Virus record (IMG/VR): IMGVR_UViG_3300035698_025196
Location: 1-37,821 of that record
Length of the DNA: 37,821 nt
Source: a virus
Direction: 5' to 3' (one strand)
Shown here: piece after piece, positions 5,390 to 31,196 of the stretch
Layout: each line of letters opens with the position of its first letter
Position numbering within the stretch: position 1 is the first letter of the stretch
The notes under the pieces: model-generated
Told to the model about the DNA's origin: nothing
What the model saw: only the letters and a program-made list of their open reading frames with translations
The model's database searches: none
Position numbers and translations under genes: made by a program

Positions 5390-5557
5390 TTATATATTCG
5401 GGTCTATTGAGTTGAATCTCAATAAGGTTTCGGTAGAATATCCATCTGTACAGTAGTCTGGTTTTATTGGCGAAACGTAAATGGAGACTCCTGATAAAAC
5501 GCATCTTGCAACGTATTCTTCACTGATAGTGGATTGCATCTCATTTAAAATATCCAT
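5390..5557 (-). CDS. small hypothetical protein, 55 aa
   Basis: On the minus strand an ATG at 5557 opens a 55-residue frame ending TAA at 5390-5392. The protein starts MDILNEMQ and contains one cysteine-flanked hydrophobic strand (RCVLSGVSIYVSPIKPDYC). It overlaps the start of the previous minus-strand gene's end by 13 bases, consistent with the operon packing here. Function unknown. Confidence 0.55.
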   Translation of the reverse strand: MDILNEMQSTISEEYVARCVLSGVSIYVSPIKPDYCTDGYSTETLLRFNSIDPNI

Positions 5558-22735: not shown

Positions 22736-23466
22736 TCAAAGAAATCCTAGATGAAATCGCTGCCGAGAGCAGCACCAACCAAAAGATGGTTATCCTTGAA
22801 AAATACAAGGACAACGAACTTTTGAAAGAAGTGCTTTACAAGGCTAAGTCTCCTAGAATTAAGTTTTATATAAAACAAATTCCAGATCATATACCATCTT
22901 TAGTTCCAAGCAAGTATTCTTTGGAGCAAATTCTTATAAAGATTGAAGCTCTTTCAAACCGAGAAATCACTGGGAATGCCGCCAAACTCTATGTAAAATC
23001 ATTGCTAGAAGGCACAACTGAGGAAAATTGTCACATCTTAAAGAGAATCATCGAGAAGGATTTGAAGTTCGGAATGGGGCGTTCAAATATCAACAAGGTT
23101 ATTCCTGATTTGATTGAAAGAACTCCTTACATGGGAGCAAAGTCTTACTCAGAGAAACTTGCAAAGAAAATCTTCGAAGAAGATGGAGTGGCTTATTCTC
23201 AGATAAAAATGGATGGTCGTTACTGTAACGCTATCCTTCAGGAAGATGGAGAGGTAGAGCTAGTGTCGAGACAAGGCGAAACAACTTATGTTGGTAATGC
23301 CCCATTCTTGAAGGAACTAGGTCTAATCAGAAACATGGTGTTGAATGGGGAATTGACTGTCGATGATTCAAAAAAACATATTGTATCTAAAGGCGAAGAC
23401 ATTATCATTGATGGAAAAAAAACAACTTACGAAGAACTTGTTAATCTTTATATAAAGCCATTATGA
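22732..23466 (+). CDS. ATP-dependent DNA ligase (T4 type), N-terminal part, 244 aa
   Basis: The opening (EILDEIAAESSTNQKMVILE, KDNELLKEVLY) aligns well with phage T4 DNA ligase. Motif I is KMDGR with the nucleotide-binding Lys at 159, the same position as in T4. Motif III is LNGELTV at 204-210. The frame stops at a TGA (23464-23466), but the rest of the enzyme continues in the same frame at 23506. The enzyme seals DNA nicks using ATP. Unless the TGA is read through, or two chains assemble, this fragment lacks motifs IV and V and the OB domain and could not ligate. Confidence 0.85.
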   Translation: MIKEILDEIAAESSTNQKMVILEKYKDNELLKEVLYKAKSPRIKFYIKQIPDHIPSLVPSKYSLEQILIKIEALSNREITGNAAKLYVKSLLEGTTEENCHILKRIIEKDLKFGMGRSNINKVIPDLIERTPYMGAKSYSEKLAKKIFEEDGVAYSQIKMDGRYCNAILQEDGEVELVSRQGETTYVGNAPFLKELGLIRNMVLNGELTVDDSKKHIVSKGEDIIIDGKKTTYEELVNLYIKPL

Positions 23467-23505
23467 AAAGATATCATTTTGAAAATTGTAAGAAAAAAAA
23501 CAATC

Positions 23506-24351
23506 ATGATAAAGAGTAAAGATATAAAAGAAGTAAAGTTGGTTAATGATAATGTTGAAATAACAACCAAAGGAGACTTAGACAGATTCACCGCAAACGG
23601 GTTAATTGCTTCAATTGTTGATATTGAAGGGAAATTAGCTAGAGAAGAAAGAACTCAGGAAGAAACTGATAAGAAAATTGCTGCTTTTGAAAAGAAACAC
23701 GCTCCTTACCAAGAAACAATCAATAAGATTAGATTTACGACTTGGGACTGTATAACTTTAGAAGAGTACTTTGAAAAGAAGACAGCAACTCCTTACAAAG
23801 AAAGACTCTCAATGTTAGAAAGTCTTCTTCGGGGTAATGAATCACCAGAGGCAATGCTCTCTATAGTTGAAACAATCGAAGTAACATCATTTAAAGAGGC
23901 AATGGAACATTTTCAAGATGCTTTGGAGCGAGACCTAGAGGGGACAATTTTGAAGTCAACCACTGGTGCTTGGAAGGATGGGAAACCAAACTGGCAAGTT
24001 AAGCTAAAATTAGAGATGAACATTGATTTGCGAATCATTGGTTTCAAATACGGATCAAAAGGAACAAAGAACGAACACGTCATCTCTACTATTTTGGCAG
24101 AGACTTCTTGTGGGATTCTAAAGACCGATCCATCAGGGATGAAAGAAGCAATGATGCAAGATGTAACCGAGAGACAAGAAAAGCTTTTGGGTACGATTGT
24201 GGAGATTCGATGCTGTGGTCTTTCACAGAACTCTAAAGGAGAATGGTCTACGCTTCATCCATCGGTAGCAAAACTACGAGATGATAAAGACACTTGTGAT
24301 TCATTAGAGTCAGCAAAAGAGATTGAAGAAATGGCTAAAGCACTTGTATAA
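23506..24351 (+). CDS. ATP-dependent DNA ligase (T4 type), C-terminal part, 281 aa
   Basis: This part holds TANGLIASIV (T4: TASNG), WDCITLEEYF, motif IV (LEGTILK), motif V (WQVKLKLE) and the OB-fold domain to the end. It is in the same frame as the N-terminal part; only one TGA separates them. The ATG at 23506 is a possible restart; a TTG at 23479 is another. The linker between motif III and TANG is about 40 residues longer than in T4, and the TGA falls in that extra segment, so a two-chain enzyme could fold. Confidence 0.8.
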   Translation: MIKSKDIKEVKLVNDNVEITTKGDLDRFTANGLIASIVDIEGKLAREERTQEETDKKIAAFEKKHAPYQETINKIRFTTWDCITLEEYFEKKTATPYKERLSMLESLLRGNESPEAMLSIVETIEVTSFKEAMEHFQDALERDLEGTILKSTTGAWKDGKPNWQVKLKLEMNIDLRIIGFKYGSKGTKNEHVISTILAETSCGILKTDPSGMKEAMMQDVTERQEKLLGTIVEIRCCGLSQNSKGEWSTLHPSVAKLRDDKDTCDSLESAKEIEEMAKALV

Positions 24352-25216: not shown

Positions 25217-25936
25217 ATGGGATTAAAAGATTTGATTTTTAAATCTGATGATGAAGATAAAAAGCCTCAACATCAGGAGAAACAAGAAACGCCCACCCAT
25301 GAGTCGCATGATGAGTCAGGTGTAAAGTTTCCAACTAATGAACCGCTATTTGATAGCGATACCACAACATCATCAATATTTCCTGAGACCACAATTCAGG
25401 CTGATGATGTTCCTATATCATGTCAACCTCACATCGACAAAGTAGTTCAGATGTATGAGGATGGATTTGCTTCTCTTGATCAAGAAGGTTTCGATTTCTA
25501 TGAGTTCTTCCAAACGATCCTGAAAGGCGGAATCCACAACCCTGCTGCTTATCAAATGGCGTTTCAAATGGCAAGCACCATGACCTCCATAAGCAAAGAT
25601 AAGCTTATTAATCAATCAGACTTCTATCTGACAGAGATTAATAAGGTTTTCAAAACTTATGTGGACGAAGGCGAGAAAAAAGAGAATCAACTCAGAAATA
25701 GTAAAAATTCTGAGGAATCAAATCTCCGTTCCGAAGTAAGTAATCTCAACAAAGAGATTGAGCGTCTTCAGTTACTTCAATCTCAAAAGCAATCAAAACT
25801 CAACACAATCGACAACCGATACAAAGAAGAGGTAGACGACCTTCACTGTAAGACTCAGGCAAATCAAATTGCCAAGGATCGTCTTGTTGGTAAGATCGAA
25901 ACTGTTGTCTTGGGGATCAAAAACAACATTCAATAA
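25217..25936 (+). CDS. coiled-coil protein, first gene of the envelope set, 239 aa
   Basis: A charged, disordered N-terminus (residues 1-75) is followed by a helical domain with SxxF and aromatic residues (YEFFQTILKGGIHNPAAYQM) and then a long coiled coil (about residues 150-225, LRSEVSNLNKEIERLQLLQ). No signal peptide or membrane helix is seen, so it should be cytosolic. The leader TTCAAACAGAAGTAA (25201-25215) is shared with the next two genes. I suggest it works with the membrane coiled-coil protein that follows, but its activity is unknown. Confidence 0.7.
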   Translation: MGLKDLIFKSDDEDKKPQHQEKQETPTHESHDESGVKFPTNEPLFDSDTTTSSIFPETTIQADDVPISCQPHIDKVVQMYEDGFASLDQEGFDFYEFFQTILKGGIHNPAAYQMAFQMASTMTSISKDKLINQSDFYLTEINKVFKTYVDEGEKKENQLRNSKNSEESNLRSEVSNLNKEIERLQLLQSQKQSKLNTIDNRYKEEVDDLHCKTQANQIAKDRLVGKIETVVLGIKNNIQ

Positions 25937-25962
25937 GTAAATAATTTCAAACAGAAATAAAG

Positions 25963-27105
25963 ATGAGTTCTAAAAAAATTACTGCTGTACGTGAGCGTAA
26001 CTTGCCGATCTTTTCCTCAAATGGAAAAGACAAGCCTTCCTTCGATATCAACAAGGTTGGAGACACGCTAGACAGCTTCAGAAAAGGAGAGAAAAATTGG
26101 TTCGGAATATTAAAACTGATTGCCGTTGGAGCGCTTGGTTGGGCTACATGGGTTTATGTTATCCCACCATTGTTTCAAGCAATTGGAAAAGTGATGGCAG
26201 TTGCAGGTAGCTTGATTTTGATCGTTGGCTTGATCATGTTGGCTCCAGTAATCTTCAAAGCGCTGAGGCGTTTTGCTAGATGGACGCACAAAGCTGTTAT
26301 TAAGCACGATCCTTTCGGAGAGCTTTATGAGCAGAAGACAAAGATGTACGAAAACAAAGAGCGTTTCCAGATTTCAAGAGGAACAATCGCTTCGCTGCAA
26401 CAAGAGGCTGAAACAAAAGCTACAGAAGCGGAAGAAGAAGTCGAGAATATCAAAAAGACAGTTCCTCGAATTGAGAAGGAACTCAAAAGAATTGATTTTG
26501 GAATGTCTGTAATTCTTACAGAGAAAGGAGACCAAGGGAAGTATGACGATGAATATCTTAAGTTTTACACTGATCGTCAGAAACTTAAAGGTGAAACAAG
26601 ACGAGCCACTAATCGTTTGGAGCAGAAAGAAGATTTCGTTCGTAAGTACGGAATGCGGAACTCGACTCTTAAGAGATTTGGTCAGAAGTTGTTGTTGATT
26701 GATTCAGACATGGAGATCAAAATCTTGGACTTCGATGCAACAATTGAAATCCTTGAGGATGATTACAAGTTTGCCAAGGAAGCTCGTGCCGCTACATCAG
26801 CAGCAAAGTCAGCTATGCATTTTGACGAGAACTGGGAGCTTGAATATGCTATTGAAGTGGTTGTTGAGACTATTGCAAGAGACGTTGCTATTACAGCGGG
26901 TAACTTGAATGATATCGACAGATTGACATCAGGAGGTCTTTATAGCCTTGATGATGATAGTATCTTCGAAGAGCTTGAATTGCTATCGGCTGAGATTTCT
27001 TCAGGAAGTCACGTATCACCAGTAGCAGACAAGTATCTTGACCCCGAGTACATTCCTAACAAGAAGGATCGCAAAGCAAACACTGGATTTGGAGAGCTTT
27101 ACTAA
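25963..27105 (+). CDS. membrane protein with long coiled coil, 380 aa
   Basis: Two hydrophobic helices (about residues 49-70 and 75-97) are followed by a long charged helical part (about 115-340) with coiled coils (SLQQEAETKATEAEEEVENI). The plan recalls PspA- or XpaC-like membrane-stress proteins that act beside TelA-type toxic-anion resistance, but I cannot assign a family from sequence alone. The leader TTCAAACAGAAATAA (25946-25960) repeats that of the previous gene. It would sit in the inner membrane with its bulk in the cytosol. Confidence 0.7.
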   Translation: MSSKKITAVRERNLPIFSSNGKDKPSFDINKVGDTLDSFRKGEKNWFGILKLIAVGALGWATWVYVIPPLFQAIGKVMAVAGSLILIVGLIMLAPVIFKALRRFARWTHKAVIKHDPFGELYEQKTKMYENKERFQISRGTIASLQQEAETKATEAEEEVENIKKTVPRIEKELKRIDFGMSVILTEKGDQGKYDDEYLKFYTDRQKLKGETRRATNRLEQKEDFVRKYGMRNSTLKRFGQKLLLIDSDMEIKILDFDATIEILEDDYKFAKEARAATSAAKSAMHFDENWELEYAIEVVVETIARDVAITAGNLNDIDRLTSGGLYSLDDDSIFEELELLSAEISSGSHVSPVADKYLDPEYIPNKKDRKANTGFGELY

Positions 27106-27142
27106 GCTCCTCAAATCTTTATTCACAAAAAATGTAACAAAG

Positions 27143-27157
27143 ACGTAAAATTTACGT
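27143..27157. promoter_or_regulatory. 15-bp palindrome upstream of the substrate-binding fusion gene
   Basis: ACGTAAA and TTTACGT flank a single A. It lies 44 bases before the ATG at 27201 and just before the third copy of the CAAACAGAA leader motif (27166-27180). It could be an operator. Confidence 0.5.
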
Positions 27158-27200
27158 TTAATATATTACAAACAGAAACAAAACAAAACAAAACAGTATC

Positions 27201-29012
27201 ATGGTAAAATTTTTTAAATCATTAACAACTGGAGCTAAAGTAGCTGCTACTATCATATTCCTAGCAGTACTCGGAACGGGTCTCTGGGTTGTGTCCCCGG
27301 GGTTGAGAACGGCAGCATCCGTCACAATGGATAAATTAGATGTTGACGATAAGATTATCGACAATAATTCAGCAGCCACCTTTATGGAGTTGCCATCGAA
27401 GTCACCTTCAACTAAGGTAGCTTCCCAACCAAACCTTACTATTGCAGGTTATGCATGGGACTGTGAAATGCCTCTTCTCACCGCAGTAGGCGGAGAGACC
27501 ACAATGAAAGGTTCTTTAATGGAGAAGGAAGGGATTAAACTAAACGTCGTTCGTCAAGATTGGCTGTCAGAGCTAAAGGCGATGCAGATGAAGTTTATCG
27601 AACAATACGACTCAGGTGAAGAGTTTCCGTCCTCGGACAAAGCTGCCTTTGCAATTATGATGATGGGTGATGGTGCGCCATTCTATATCTCAGCTATGCA
27701 GAAGTCTATTGACGAGAAGTTTGGAGCAGGAAAGTACCACGTAAAAGTTATCGGCTCTATGGGAATGTCTGATGGAGAAGATAAATTGATCGGACTACCT
27801 GAATGGAAATCAAATCCACAATCTATGTTGGGTTCATTGATTTCGACCGTCCCCGGGGATGGAGATTGGGTTACTTTACTCAATTACTGTTTTGCTAACG
27901 GACTCAAAGTAAACCCTGACTTCACTACTTATGATGCTCAAGCCGTAAACATCTTCCCTTCTAAAGATGACGATTACATTAATTCCGCAAAAGAACTTAT
28001 TGCCTCACAAACTGAAGGTTTCACAGTAAACTTGAAAGTTGTTGTGGATGGAGAATTGACAGGAGAAACTATCGACAAGAAAATTGACGGATGTGCCACA
28101 TGGACGCCCGGTGATGTGATGGTCTTCCGAGCTTTAACAGGCTTTACAGACATTGCTTCTACTTCAGATTTTCCAAATCAAATGGCAACCACAATCATCG
28201 CAGTTGATGAATGGTGTAATGCTCACACAGATATAACAGTTGGAATTTTACGAGCTACACTTACAGCTTCTAACCAATTGAAACTGTATGACGAATGGAG
28301 ACGAAGAGGTGCTGAAGCACTAGCTGAAACATTCAAGATTGAAGGAGAAGCTTCTAGCCCAGACTACTGGTATGAAATCTTCGATGGCAATACTGGAACG
28401 AAAGCTGGAATCACTTACTCAACTGGTGGAGGTCGAGTCCTAAACTATGACGATGTACTACAGTACTACGGATATGGAACAGACCGAACTAACCGATACC
28501 GAGCAGTATATGAGCAAGTCTCAGGATACTTAACTGCACTGAACCCATTCGGATTCAATGAAGAAGTTGGCGGGGTTGTACCTTACAAAGATGCTGTAAA
28601 TCTTTCATACTTGCTTCAAGCGAATATCGAAGAGGAAAGCCGAGGTACAGCGACTACTTACGACTACAATACTACCAAGACTAAAGTTCTAGGAAAGGCT
28701 GATTACCAAATCAACTTCGCATACAATGCAGCTGATATCGAACAATCGTCTTACGGAGCCATCTCAAGTATCTATAACCAACTAGTGCAAGCTGAACAAG
28801 CAACAATAGTATTGATTGGATATACAGATATAAAAGGTGATGCTGCCTACAATCTAGGACTATCGGAGAAACGTGCAAACTCAGTAGCTCAGGCTCTGAT
28901 TGATCGAGGAATTGATCCACAAAGAATCCAGTCTGTAGAAGGTGCAGGAGAAAGCTCTAAGTACCCTACGAATGCTCAGAATCGAAGAGTAGAAGTTAGC
29001 TTACTCCAGTAA
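27201..29012 (+). CDS. substrate-binding protein fused to OmpA domain, 603 aa
   Basis: A single N-terminal helix (about residues 13-30) anchors the protein in the inner membrane. A long periplasmic part follows (LTIAGYAWDCEMPLLTAVGG, YINSAKELIASQTEGF, WTPGDVMVFRALTG), which I read as a substrate-binding domain of the nitrate/sulfonate/thiamine-precursor type. Residues about 500-603 are an OmpA-like peptidoglycan-binding domain: GYTDIKGDAAYNLGLSEKRA, then GES and NRRVEV, with the Asp and Arg that bind the peptide. The fusion would hold a binding protein in place in the cell wall. It is followed by a permease and an ATPase gene, so it is likely their binding partner. Confidence 0.8.
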   Translation: MVKFFKSLTTGAKVAATIIFLAVLGTGLWVVSPGLRTAASVTMDKLDVDDKIIDNNSAATFMELPSKSPSTKVASQPNLTIAGYAWDCEMPLLTAVGGETTMKGSLMEKEGIKLNVVRQDWLSELKAMQMKFIEQYDSGEEFPSSDKAAFAIMMMGDGAPFYISAMQKSIDEKFGAGKYHVKVIGSMGMSDGEDKLIGLPEWKSNPQSMLGSLISTVPGDGDWVTLLNYCFANGLKVNPDFTTYDAQAVNIFPSKDDDYINSAKELIASQTEGFTVNLKVVVDGELTGETIDKKIDGCATWTPGDVMVFRALTGFTDIASTSDFPNQMATTIIAVDEWCNAHTDITVGILRATLTASNQLKLYDEWRRRGAEALAETFKIEGEASSPDYWYEIFDGNTGTKAGITYSTGGGRVLNYDDVLQYYGYGTDRTNRYRAVYEQVSGYLTALNPFGFNEEVGGVVPYKDAVNLSYLLQANIEEESRGTATTYDYNTTKTKVLGKADYQINFAYNAADIEQSSYGAISSIYNQLVQAEQATIVLIGYTDIKGDAAYNLGLSEKRANSVAQALIDRGIDPQRIQSVEGAGESSKYPTNAQNRRVEVSLLQ

Positions 29013-29032
29013 GCTACTAACATAAGATAAAC

Positions 29033-29083
29033 AAAAAGGTGGGGAGGGCGATTGGCTCAACCAAAAGTTCCCCTCACCTTTTT
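29033..29083 (+). terminator. intrinsic terminator, probably bidirectional
   Basis: AAAAAGGTGGGGA pairs with TCCCCTCACCTTTTT (one bulged A) around a loop that can itself pair TTGG with CCAA. A T run follows, and an A run precedes it. It separates the binding-protein gene from the barrel and ABC genes. Confidence 0.75.
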
Positions 29084-29085
29084 GT

Positions 29086-29107
29086 ATGCCCCAAACATTT
29101 TTAAAAC
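29086..29107 (+). promoter_or_regulatory. conserved leader motif ATGCCCCAAAC...
   Basis: ATGCCCCAAACATTTTTAAA lies just after the terminator and 28 bases before the ATG at 29114. A close copy lies at 31352, 29 bases before another start and again directly after a terminator. It may be a promoter for a non-host sigma factor or phage polymerase, or a translation element. Confidence 0.5.
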
Positions 29108-29113
29108 AAGAAC

Positions 29114-29587
29114 ATGAAGAAATTATTATTTTTGCTTTGCGCTGTACTTTTTACAGCAACAACTTTCGCCCAAGGCGGAGAAGACTCACAAGAGAATACT
29201 GAGCCGCTTTACAATATGTATGTGGCATCTGGGATTTCGGTTACCAATTTCAGTGGAGACGAAACATTCAACTCAACATCTTATGTCTCAGCAGAGATTG
29301 GGGTTATGCGAGACAACCTTGCAGTTGCAGGTGTCTTCGGTATAAGCAGCCTTCACCAAGCTGATTCATACTGGTATGAAGGTAAGGTTATGTTTTACCA
29401 ACCTCTAGGAGCAGTTGATGGTTACGGAGTGTTAGGAGTCGGAAGCTACATTAATGACAACAGCTTATTTCTAGAGTATGGAGTAGGAATATCAAAAGAA
29501 TTTAATGGCTGGGGTGTCTTTGCTCAAGTCAGTAACTGGGACACTGCAAACTACATCTCGCTTGGAGTAAGCGTATCTTCATTTTAA
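29114..29587 (+). CDS. exported outer-membrane beta-barrel candidate, 157 aa
   Basis: The signal peptide MKKLLFLLCAVLFTATTFAQ is clear. The mature part alternates polar and apolar residues in strands with aromatic ends (TSYVSAEIGVMRDNLAVAGV, GYGVLGVGSYI, NYISLGVSVSSF) and ends with Phe, as outer-membrane barrels do. It lies between the substrate-binding fusion and the ABC genes, so it may be the outer-membrane part of the same system. Confidence 0.7.
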   Translation: MKKLLFLLCAVLFTATTFAQGGEDSQENTEPLYNMYVASGISVTNFSGDETFNSTSYVSAEIGVMRDNLAVAGVFGISSLHQADSYWYEGKVMFYQPLGAVDGYGVLGVGSYINDNSLFLEYGVGISKEFNGWGVFAQVSNWDTANYISLGVSVSSF

Positions 29588-29591
29588 GATT

Positions 29592-30362
29592 ATGAAAAGC
29601 CTAATAACACCGTTCGAAAAAGTCTCCAAAAAAACCACTTGGGCAGTAGCCGCATTTTGGTTGATCCTAGTACTAGGATCATGGGGATTATACGGTACAC
29701 AAGATACACATTTGTTTCCAAGTATTCCACAGGTACTAGACGGATTTAGTGGTCTATGGTCTGAGGGCTTAGTAACACATATTTTTAGCTCTCTTTGGCT
29801 ATGTGCCAAGTCAGTATTTTTTGCAATATTGGTTTCATTACTTTTCGTTTACCTATCACCTATTCCTCTAATACAACCGTTAACAAAAACAATTTCTAAA
29901 TTTAGATTCCTTCCACTAACAGGTATTGCTTTTTACATTACCATGATAGTGTCTTCAGGAAGAAGTGTTCAGATGTGGATTCTGGTCATCTTTATGACCA
30001 CTTACCTAGTCACAACACTCTTGTCAATGTTGAAAGACATTAAAGAAGAGGAATTTGATCACGCTAGAGCTTTGGGGTGCAACAGATGGGTGGTACTTCT
30101 CGAAGTTGTCATCAAAGGAAGATTCGATTACGTACTTGATATGGTTCGTCAGAACCTAGCAATTGTTTGGATGTTCTTGGTAACTGTTGAATCACTTCTC
30201 GCAGCAGCGGGAGGCTTGGGATTCCTCATCAAGAACTCAGACAAGTTTATGAATCACGGACGAATCGTAGCCCTTCAAATAGTAATTTTGCTAATAGGCT
30301 TAGGTCTTGATTACATAGTAAACAAGATTCGACAAGTCTCATTTAGATACTCTAAACTTTAA
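29592..30362 (+). CDS. ABC transporter permease, 256 aa
   Basis: This is a binding-protein-dependent transport permease of the SsuC/TauC/NitT type. Several hydrophobic helices span about residues 15-250. The EAA-type loop that contacts the ATPase reads FDHARALGCNRWVVLLEVVI, followed by LAIVWMFLVTVESLLAAAGG and GLGFLIKNS as in that family. Length is normal. It lies four bases after the barrel gene and three bases before the ATPase gene. The substrate cannot be told from sequence. Confidence 0.85.
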   Translation: MKSLITPFEKVSKKTTWAVAAFWLILVLGSWGLYGTQDTHLFPSIPQVLDGFSGLWSEGLVTHIFSSLWLCAKSVFFAILVSLLFVYLSPIPLIQPLTKTISKFRFLPLTGIAFYITMIVSSGRSVQMWILVIFMTTYLVTTLLSMLKDIKEEEFDHARALGCNRWVVLLEVVIKGRFDYVLDMVRQNLAIVWMFLVTVESLLAAAGGLGFLIKNSDKFMNHGRIVALQIVILLIGLGLDYIVNKIRQVSFRYSKL

Positions 30363-30365
30363 CAG

Positions 30366-31196
30366 GTGCAATACGAAGAAAAAGATACAATTTTATACCT
30401 AGAGAATGTAGAGGTGGGTTACGGCAAAGGCGATAGCTACAAGCCAGTCCTAAAGAACATTAACATCATCGAGAAAGATGTAGTTAGATCAGGGTATGTA
30501 ACTGGACAGACTATTGCAGTTGTTGGAAGATCAGGACGTGGAAAATCCACTCTCTTCAAAGCTTTAACTGGGTTGGTAAAACCACAATCAGGTCAAGTTC
30601 TTATCACCGAATTTGATTCTGAAGATTCTACAGATGCAAAGGTTGTCCAAGAGGGTGATGTTGGATTCGTAGATCAGAAATACACTCTTTTCCGACACAA
30701 GACAGTTGAGCAATGCTTTAAGTTTGCTTTGCGTAACAGCGACAAATCTAAGGAAGAAAAAGAAGAGATCATTGAAGAGTACCTACAAGACTGGGGACTG
30801 AAAAATCAGAGGAAGCAATATCCGAATGAGCTTTCAGGAGGTCAGAGGCAAAGGACTGCAATCATCGAACAAATTCTTTCATCAGGTCACTTTATGGTGC
30901 TTGATGAGCCTACAAGTGGTCTTGATTTAATCAATGTCGATGATGTGAAAAAATCGTTTGAGAAAATAAAAGAAGATCATGAGTTGAATACTATAATATT
31001 CTCTACCCACGATATCAATTTTGCAGTAGAAATGGCTGATAGTATTTATGTTGTTGGTTACCCTGATGAAACTCATGAGTTTGCCACGATTGTTCAGCAT
31101 TACGATCTTAAAAAATTAGGTCTTGCTTGGAAAGAATTTGGAATAGAACATTTAGAAATTGTAAAAGACATCAAAAGAGTTTTCCGAAACTCTTAA
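30366..31196 (+). CDS. ABC transporter ATPase, 276 aa
   Basis: All ABC ATPase motifs are present: Walker A GRSGRGKST (residues 54-62), Q-loop VDQKYTLFRHKTV, signature LSGGQRQR, Walker B FMVLDEPTSGLD and H-loop STHD. The start is a GTG; no ATG lies before Walker A. It is coupled to the permease and would power import together with it, and with the OmpA-fused binding protein. It most resembles nitrate/sulfonate/taurine ATPases. Confidence 0.9.
   Translation: MQYEEKDTILYLENVEVGYGKGDSYKPVLKNINIIEKDVVRSGYVTGQTIAVVGRSGRGKSTLFKALTGLVKPQSGQVLITEFDSEDSTDAKVVQEGDVGFVDQKYTLFRHKTVEQCFKFALRNSDKSKEEKEEIIEEYLQDWGLKNQRKQYPNELSGGQRQRTAIIEQILSSGHFMVLDEPTSGLDLINVDDVKKSFEKIKEDHELNTIIFSTHDINFAVEMADSIYVVGYPDETHEFATIVQHYDLKKLGLAWKEFGIEHLEIVKDIKRVFRNS

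Follow-up and report, generated by a model that had tools for sequence, protein, structure and literature searches.

We analyzed a window of 37,821 nt, the IMG/VR virus record IMGVR_UViG_3300035698_025196, in which six consecutive open reading frames (ORFs) on the + strand at positions 25217 to 31196, designated genes A to F, include those for a binding protein, a permease, and an ATPase of an ATP-binding cassette (ABC) transporter (Table 1). Five of these genes make up an operon, A-B-C-E-F, that is conserved both in huge phages and on the chromosomes of Bacteroidota. On balance, we consider that they probably encode a cell wall–tethered ABC importer of the NMT1 type that huge phages gained at least twice and have long retained. 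An earlier note on this DNA had described all six genes as one phage-borne system. The six-gene row was recovered with the same coordinates, strand, and protein layouts, with intergenic gaps of 26, 95, 101, 4, and 3 nt in turn, and the system was found to consist of a five-gene core, whereas the small barrel gene D is optional.

The viral tally comprised 59 nonredundant loci with full flanks, in which genes were called by profile hidden Markov models (HMMs). All five genes were detected by HMM, in the order A-B-C-E-F and on one strand, at 46 of these 59 loci. Among the remaining 13, locus L192 lacked the partner genes, and at most of the others the position of the undetected gene was occupied by an ORF of the expected length and membrane pattern. 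The recurrence of the same gene order across dozens of independent loci, down to ~30% identity, excludes a chance origin. Relatives of C numbered at least 360 in a scan of GTDB genomes, and the 80 best matches among them (48 to 55% identity) were nearly all from Bacteroidota, including Flavobacterium, Aquimarina, Cellulophaga, Saprospiraceae, and Chitinophagaceae, with some being located on contigs of ~3 Mb. Genome draws intended to sample phyla gave a prevalence of 8 of 395, a figure that carries no weight for any particular phylum given that identical genomes were drawn around three different centers. The five genes were arranged in the same order at 64 of 69 bacterial loci with full flanks. 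Given that the other five bacterial loci, all from Saprospiria, retain C-E-F alone, the transporter is the core of the system, with A and B being its partners. The search for this gene order in other phages and in Bacteroidetes that the earlier note had proposed thus located it in both. The operon is not confined to bacterial chromosomes, nor is it a one-off of a single phage, being conserved across huge phages and Bacteroidota.

With regard to the phage side of this distribution, the cassette and a gene for the terminase large subunit were present on the same contig in phage contigs of 306 to 462 kb, and all five core genes were present in the 462-kb phage LR756500 as well as in IMG/VR contigs. 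A third, distant lineage was formed by all 15 matched Prevotella Lak megaphage records together with a 735-kb phage. The Lak phages and Bacillus phage G surfaced when divergent relatives were used as queries; both were missed by single-sequence tblastn on phage records. The order A-B-C-E-F was kept in Lak-C1 (a complete, circular genome of 540 kb), in Lak-B5, and in the 735-kb phage, with HMM E values for Lak-C1 of 2e-23 for A, 4e-8 for B, 4e-29 for C, 4e-27 for E, and 2e-42 for F. The same-contig terminase genes and the complete Lak genomes bear out the view that the system is phage-borne. The five Lak genes read alike with and without TAG recoding. The cassette genes of Lak-C1 and Lak-B5 (L230 and L231) contain no in-frame TAG, and a neighboring gene requires TAG to be read as Gln. 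Early expression precedes recoding in recoded phages, and this pattern suggests that the Lak cassette may be expressed early.

Phage G, which is cultured and has a Gram-positive host, encodes homologs of E (gp243, hhalign probability of 99.2%), F (gp245, 99.9%), and C (gp249, 99.6%), with gp249 matching the C profile at 1.9e-34. A second C-like protein is encoded by gp250 (hhalign, 99.3%). The phage G region gp243 to gp250 thus resembles the cassette in its homologous C, E, and F proteins, but it differs in its host and in its gene order, E-F-gp246-gp247-C-C2, and the small coiled-coil genes gp246 and gp247 are like A and B in layout alone, their sequence similarity being insignificant. The existing annotations of these phage G proteins are generic ("ABC-like transporter permease," "ABC transporter," and "OmpA/MotB domain"). 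Given that a phage of a Gram-positive host possesses C, E, and F homologs, an outer membrane is not required for the system. The tandem proteins gp249 and gp250 (L233, 5992 to 9197), each a substrate-binding protein with an OmpA domain, constitute a paralog pair and may bind different ligands.

In the binding protein C, one NH2-terminal membrane segment is followed by a domain of 410 residues and then by a COOH-terminal OmpA domain (Pfam E value of 2.7e-16). A structure model obtained with AlphaFold2 from 91 homologs had a predicted local distance difference test score (pLDDT) of 90.1 and a predicted template modeling score of 0.87, whereas an alignment of four phage sequences had given a pLDDT of just 41. 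A Foldseek search with the large domain retrieved TauA (E value of 2e-9, TM-score of 0.73 by target), CmpA, NrtA, SsuA, PqqT, and Thi5, and that with the OmpA domain retrieved PA0833, OprF, and PAL, to which the latter domain was also matched by sequence. For the window's own C, Pfam detected OmpA alone, with no match to NMT1; three homologs, phage G gp249 and the C proteins of Lak-C1 and the 735-kb phage, passed the Pfam cutoffs for OmpA together with NMT1 or NMT1_2. The fold matches and the NMT1 or NMT1_2 assignments of distant homologs together identify the large domain as a genuine binding protein. Structure prediction, which the earlier note had recommended as a check, thus confirmed the substrate-binding domain that it had proposed, and the anchor helix and OmpA domain of C agree with its suggestion of a double tether to membrane and cell wall. 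A search of BFVD revealed no viral protein with such a combination of domains, a result that reflects only the content of that library.

Conservation of C is concentrated at the predicted ligand site. The binding domain of 411 residues contains 77 columns that are at least 90% conserved, and 33 of them are packed into 74 residues in the loops that directly follow the central strands, where such binding proteins have their ligand site. The conserved residues include D120, D157, E193, D194, D220, D222, and D305, against R118. An invariant GDGDW motif in the lineage of the window's C aligns, albeit weakly, with GSSSH of SsuA, and Lak C retains an SsuA-like GTASH. We infer that the window's lineage does not bind a simple oxyanion but some other ligand, possibly a cation or a metal-assisted one, and that ligands would differ between lineages. 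Given that GDGDW stands in place of GSSSH, TauA and NrtA provide no guide to what C binds or how it acts, and the pocket differs from those of importers that take up a sulfonate, nitrate, bicarbonate, or pyrimidine.

The permease E aligned over its full length with Escherichia coli TauC (hhalign probability of 98%, E value of 3e-14), and its closest solved structures were CmpB (1.5e-9) and NrtB, with its scores falling below the curated NCBIfam cutoffs. The motifs of the ATPase F are intact: Walker A (GRSGRGKST), the signature (LSGGQRQR), Walker B (VLDEP), and the H-loop (STHD). F also carries a family-specific COOH-terminal motif, YDLKxxGLAW. In one 353-kb phage contig (L021, 13212 to 14029), the F ATPase is represented by two ORFs, reflecting either a frameshift or an assembly error.

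Gene A encodes a protein without a membrane segment that comprises a short NH2-terminal KDLIF..DDEDKK motif, a low-complexity linker, a helical region, and a coiled coil. The B protein has adjacent hydrophobic segments at residues 49 to 70 and 69 to 105 that are followed by a coiled coil, which is probably on the cytoplasmic side as judged from the basic flank behind the second segment. Neither gene was assigned to a Pfam family, and neither protein has any recognized relative. The earlier note had likened the pair to PspA/XpaC/TelA-type proteins, a likeness that sequence does not support: No match to the Pfam families of PspA, XpaC, or TelA at an E value of 0.01 was obtained for 59 B and 50 A proteins, in a tally that for A covered the first 25 of 38 single-member families and leaves room for a very remote XpaC or TelA kinship. 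Comparison with E. coli PspA by hhalign gave probabilities of 0.6 and 6.4%, and we rejected kinship with these three families. Gene D encodes a protein with a signal peptide that matched no known family and is likely an outer membrane barrel. It is set apart from C by a strong terminator-like hairpin, and its presence at 16 of 59 viral loci and 0 of 69 bacterial loci marks it as accessory.

The ratio of nonsynonymous to synonymous substitution rates between close phage pairs was 0.02 to 0.26 for A, B, C, E, and F and 0.02 to 0.35 for D; all cassette genes are under purifying selection. A quick tree of C contained a phage clade of 31 rows in the main lineage with a Shimodaira-Hasegawa–like approximate likelihood ratio support of 98. 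A maximum-likelihood tree of 80 C proteins resolved two deep lineages, each with phage and bacterial members, and forced at least three changes between virus and bacterium labels. Phage clades of 10 (bootstrap of 100) and 20 (bootstrap of 97) members were apparent within its main lineage, the base of which was unresolved, so that we claim no single phage origin there. Phage and bacterial copies were also strongly separated in a permease tree, in agreement with the C tree. Together, the C and permease trees indicate that phages acquired the operon more than once or returned it, and that they then kept it for a long time.

On the basis of these observations, we propose that A, B, C, E, and F, with the exclusion of D, form one inner membrane complex. 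The pump would consist of two E permeases and two F ATPases. C would be held by its NH2-terminal membrane helix and by a flexible linker to the peptidoglycan-binding OmpA domain, and its tethered binding domain would catch a solute near the cell wall and hand it to E for import. A and B would assemble on or under the complex from the cytoplasm and would position or regulate the pump. Huge phages would have acquired the operon from bacteria more than once, with Bacteroidota being the putative source for the window's lineage. The benefit to the phage is probably a supply of solute, or an envelope function that is maintained in the host through a long infection.

The cassette resembles the NMT1/THI5-type importers TauABC, SsuABC, NrtABC, and CmpABC in the fold of its binding domain, its permease family, and its ATPase motifs. 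The binding proteins of ABC importers are normally soluble or lipid anchored. Unlike those of the NMT1/THI5 type, C is neither free in the periplasm nor lipid anchored but carries a membrane helix at one end and an OmpA domain at the other, and it has the invariant acidic GDGDW motif rather than an oxyanion-binding Ser/His loop. The cassette differs further from such importers in its two extra coiled-coil partners and in its occurrence in phages. Like the phage shock protein (PSP) system with PspA, XpaC/TelA, and the Ter sets, it includes inner membrane coiled-coil proteins, with B having a layout of two helices followed by a coil, but it shares no detectable sequence kinship with these sets and centers on a binding protein–dependent ABC transporter that they lack. 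C is also similar to cyanophage PstS and other phage-borne binding proteins in that it is a phage-encoded solute-binding protein. Such phage proteins are typically encoded by single genes, whereas the cassette specifies a complete transporter and two partner proteins. The main text of a survey of huge phages mentions no transporter (PMC7162821), a review of jumbo phages mentions Ter and TelA parts but no such transporter (PMC7824862), and the gene set is not described in PMC13037316, PMC10747093, PMC8346664, or PMC12607003. Within the open-access literature, it appears not to have been described as a system.

Several points weigh against the proposed reading. Transport and a substrate are inferred, and the contact between C and E is presumed. 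The double tether of C could serve sensing rather than carrying, and its pocket differs from the usual oxyanion site, with GDGDW instead of GSSSH. The roles proposed for A and B are guesses, given that neither protein has a known relative. In addition, no terminase gene was found in the 37.8-kb window, the phage nature of which rests on the IMG/VR classification and on its place among terminase-bearing contigs.

The most serious alternative, although we consider it rather unlikely, is an envelope device rather than a nutrient importer, in which F would hydrolyze ATP to drive movements of E and of the wall-tethered C that sense or change membrane-peptidoglycan distance, tension, or lipid state, with A and B scaffolding the inner membrane in the manner proposed for envelope protection by PSP or Ter systems. 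The two tethers of C would fit such a device, as would two dedicated coiled-coil partners of a kind not known from TauABC or SsuABC and the genes that surround bacterial copies of the operon. An AAA+ ATPase gene (AAA and AAA_lid_6 domains) lies beside the operon at 55 of 80 bacterial loci and is absent from viral loci, and some bacterial copies have genes for a histidine kinase and a regulator of the NtrC type as neighbors. Jumbo phages also possess components of Ter, including TelA (PMC7824862). However, the conservation of C is concentrated at the ligand cleft, as if the ligand matters, E and F resemble an ordinary importer, and A and B are dissimilar to PspA, XpaC, and TelA. A related and similarly tentative proposal is that the complex is a near-core machine of giant phages and not a nutrient importer, being ATP driven and wall tethered, with a sensor domain of the NMT1 type by which it monitors or holds the envelope in long infections across otherwise unrelated megaphages of Gram-negative and Gram-positive hosts.

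It is improbable that the complex acts in superinfection exclusion or against competitors by altering the envelope so that other phages fail to inject their DNA. Other such systems are present in huge phages (PMC7824862), which also encode proteins of the membrane and cell surface with a possible influence on infection by other phages (PMC7162821), and PADLOC returned weak generic matches to ZorB (OmpA domain) and to ABC-type ATPases. However, no defense family was matched as a system by PADLOC, the operon in Flavobacterium is stable, chromosomal, and adjacent in many genomes to ATP synthase genes, and strict conservation of the pocket suits ligand binding better than an arms race. We rejected the Zorya system itself, given that the weak OmpA-domain matches were to ZorB alone and ZorA was not matched among the cassette genes. 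Slightly less probable still is that these are ordinary auxiliary metabolic genes acquired recently and separately from each host, as the presence of the operon in host-like Bacteroidota chromosomes and the label changes forced on the C tree might suggest. Phage copies mostly cluster together in large, deep clades, lack the bacterial AAA+ gene, and keep the five genes together in Lak, the 735-kb phage, and contigs that are ~30% identical, all of which argue against such a history. Finally, misclassification of host DNA as viral, for which the abundance of the operon in Flavobacteriaceae chromosomes and the missing terminase of the window might speak, is very unlikely and was rejected for the family on the basis of same-contig terminase genes, complete circular Lak genomes, and the C, E, and F homologs of the isolated phage G.

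Table 1 Features of the cassette in the window.
Feature	Position	Strand	Description
Gene A	25217..25936	+	239 aa, soluble, helical region and coiled coil
Gene B	25963..27105	+	380 aa, two membrane segments then long coiled coil
Gene C	27201..29012	+	603 aa, membrane-anchored substrate-binding protein with COOH-terminal OmpA domain
C inner membrane anchor helix	27228..27293	+	Residues 10-31
C type II periplasmic-binding-protein (NMT1/TauA/SsuA/NrtA-like) domain	27393..28625	+	Residues 65-475
C OmpA-like peptidoglycan-binding domain	28683..29009	+	Residues 495-603
Terminator-like hairpin between C and D	29031..29085	+	-29.9 kcal/mol, z -4.3
Gene D	29114..29587	+	157 aa, secreted, small, beta-rich; accessory
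Gene E	29592..30362	+	256 aa, ABC permease of TauC/SsuC/NtrB/CmpB type; EAA loop kept
Gene F	30366..31196	+	276 aa, ABC ATPase; catalytic motifs all kept

Other features of the window and of related loci were also apparent. The sequence TATATTCG occurs four times in the window (positions 5393, 11543, 25172, and 31307), always on the + strand, compared with an expected one; one copy is located ~45 nt upstream of gene A and another downstream of gene F, and the sequence is possibly a phage promoter element. Shine-Dalgarno–like sites are rare (4 of 42 genes, versus 6.2 at random), which fits a Bacteroidota host without proving it. The ATP-dependent DNA ligase is represented by two ORFs (22732 to 23466 and 23479 to 24351) that correspond to consecutive parts of phrog_114, whereas in the related contig L003 it is a single ORF of 468 amino acids. 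An ORF of 548 amino acids (16882 to 18528) was matched in part by several regions of Tetrasphaera phage TJE1 and also by Edwardsiella phage Edno5. Among bacterial loci, the AAA+ ATPase adjoining the operon at L083 (5944 to 7422) and at equivalent positions is SpoVK/CbbX-like, and the operons adjoining an NtrC-type response regulator gene are the divergent L224, L225, and L226, with a histidine kinase gene near two of them. The metagenome-assembled genome records labeled Limnohabitans and Thermoanaerobaculia (L135 and L146) cluster with sequences from Bacteroidota and probably reflect misbinning.

Why phages reach sizes of 300 to 735 kb is an open question. A complete, ancient, selected, transporter-like complex is common to Lak megaphages, the 735-kb phage, and many contigs of 300 to 460 kb, and phage G possesses related core genes. 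This distribution points to a need that giant phages share and that acts by way of the host envelope, and the role of the complex can be tested with phage G in Bacillus megaterium. The wall-tethered design is an addition to the known ABC importers, and the cassette also provides leads to the function of an uncharacterized operon of Flavobacteriaceae and other Bacteroidota.

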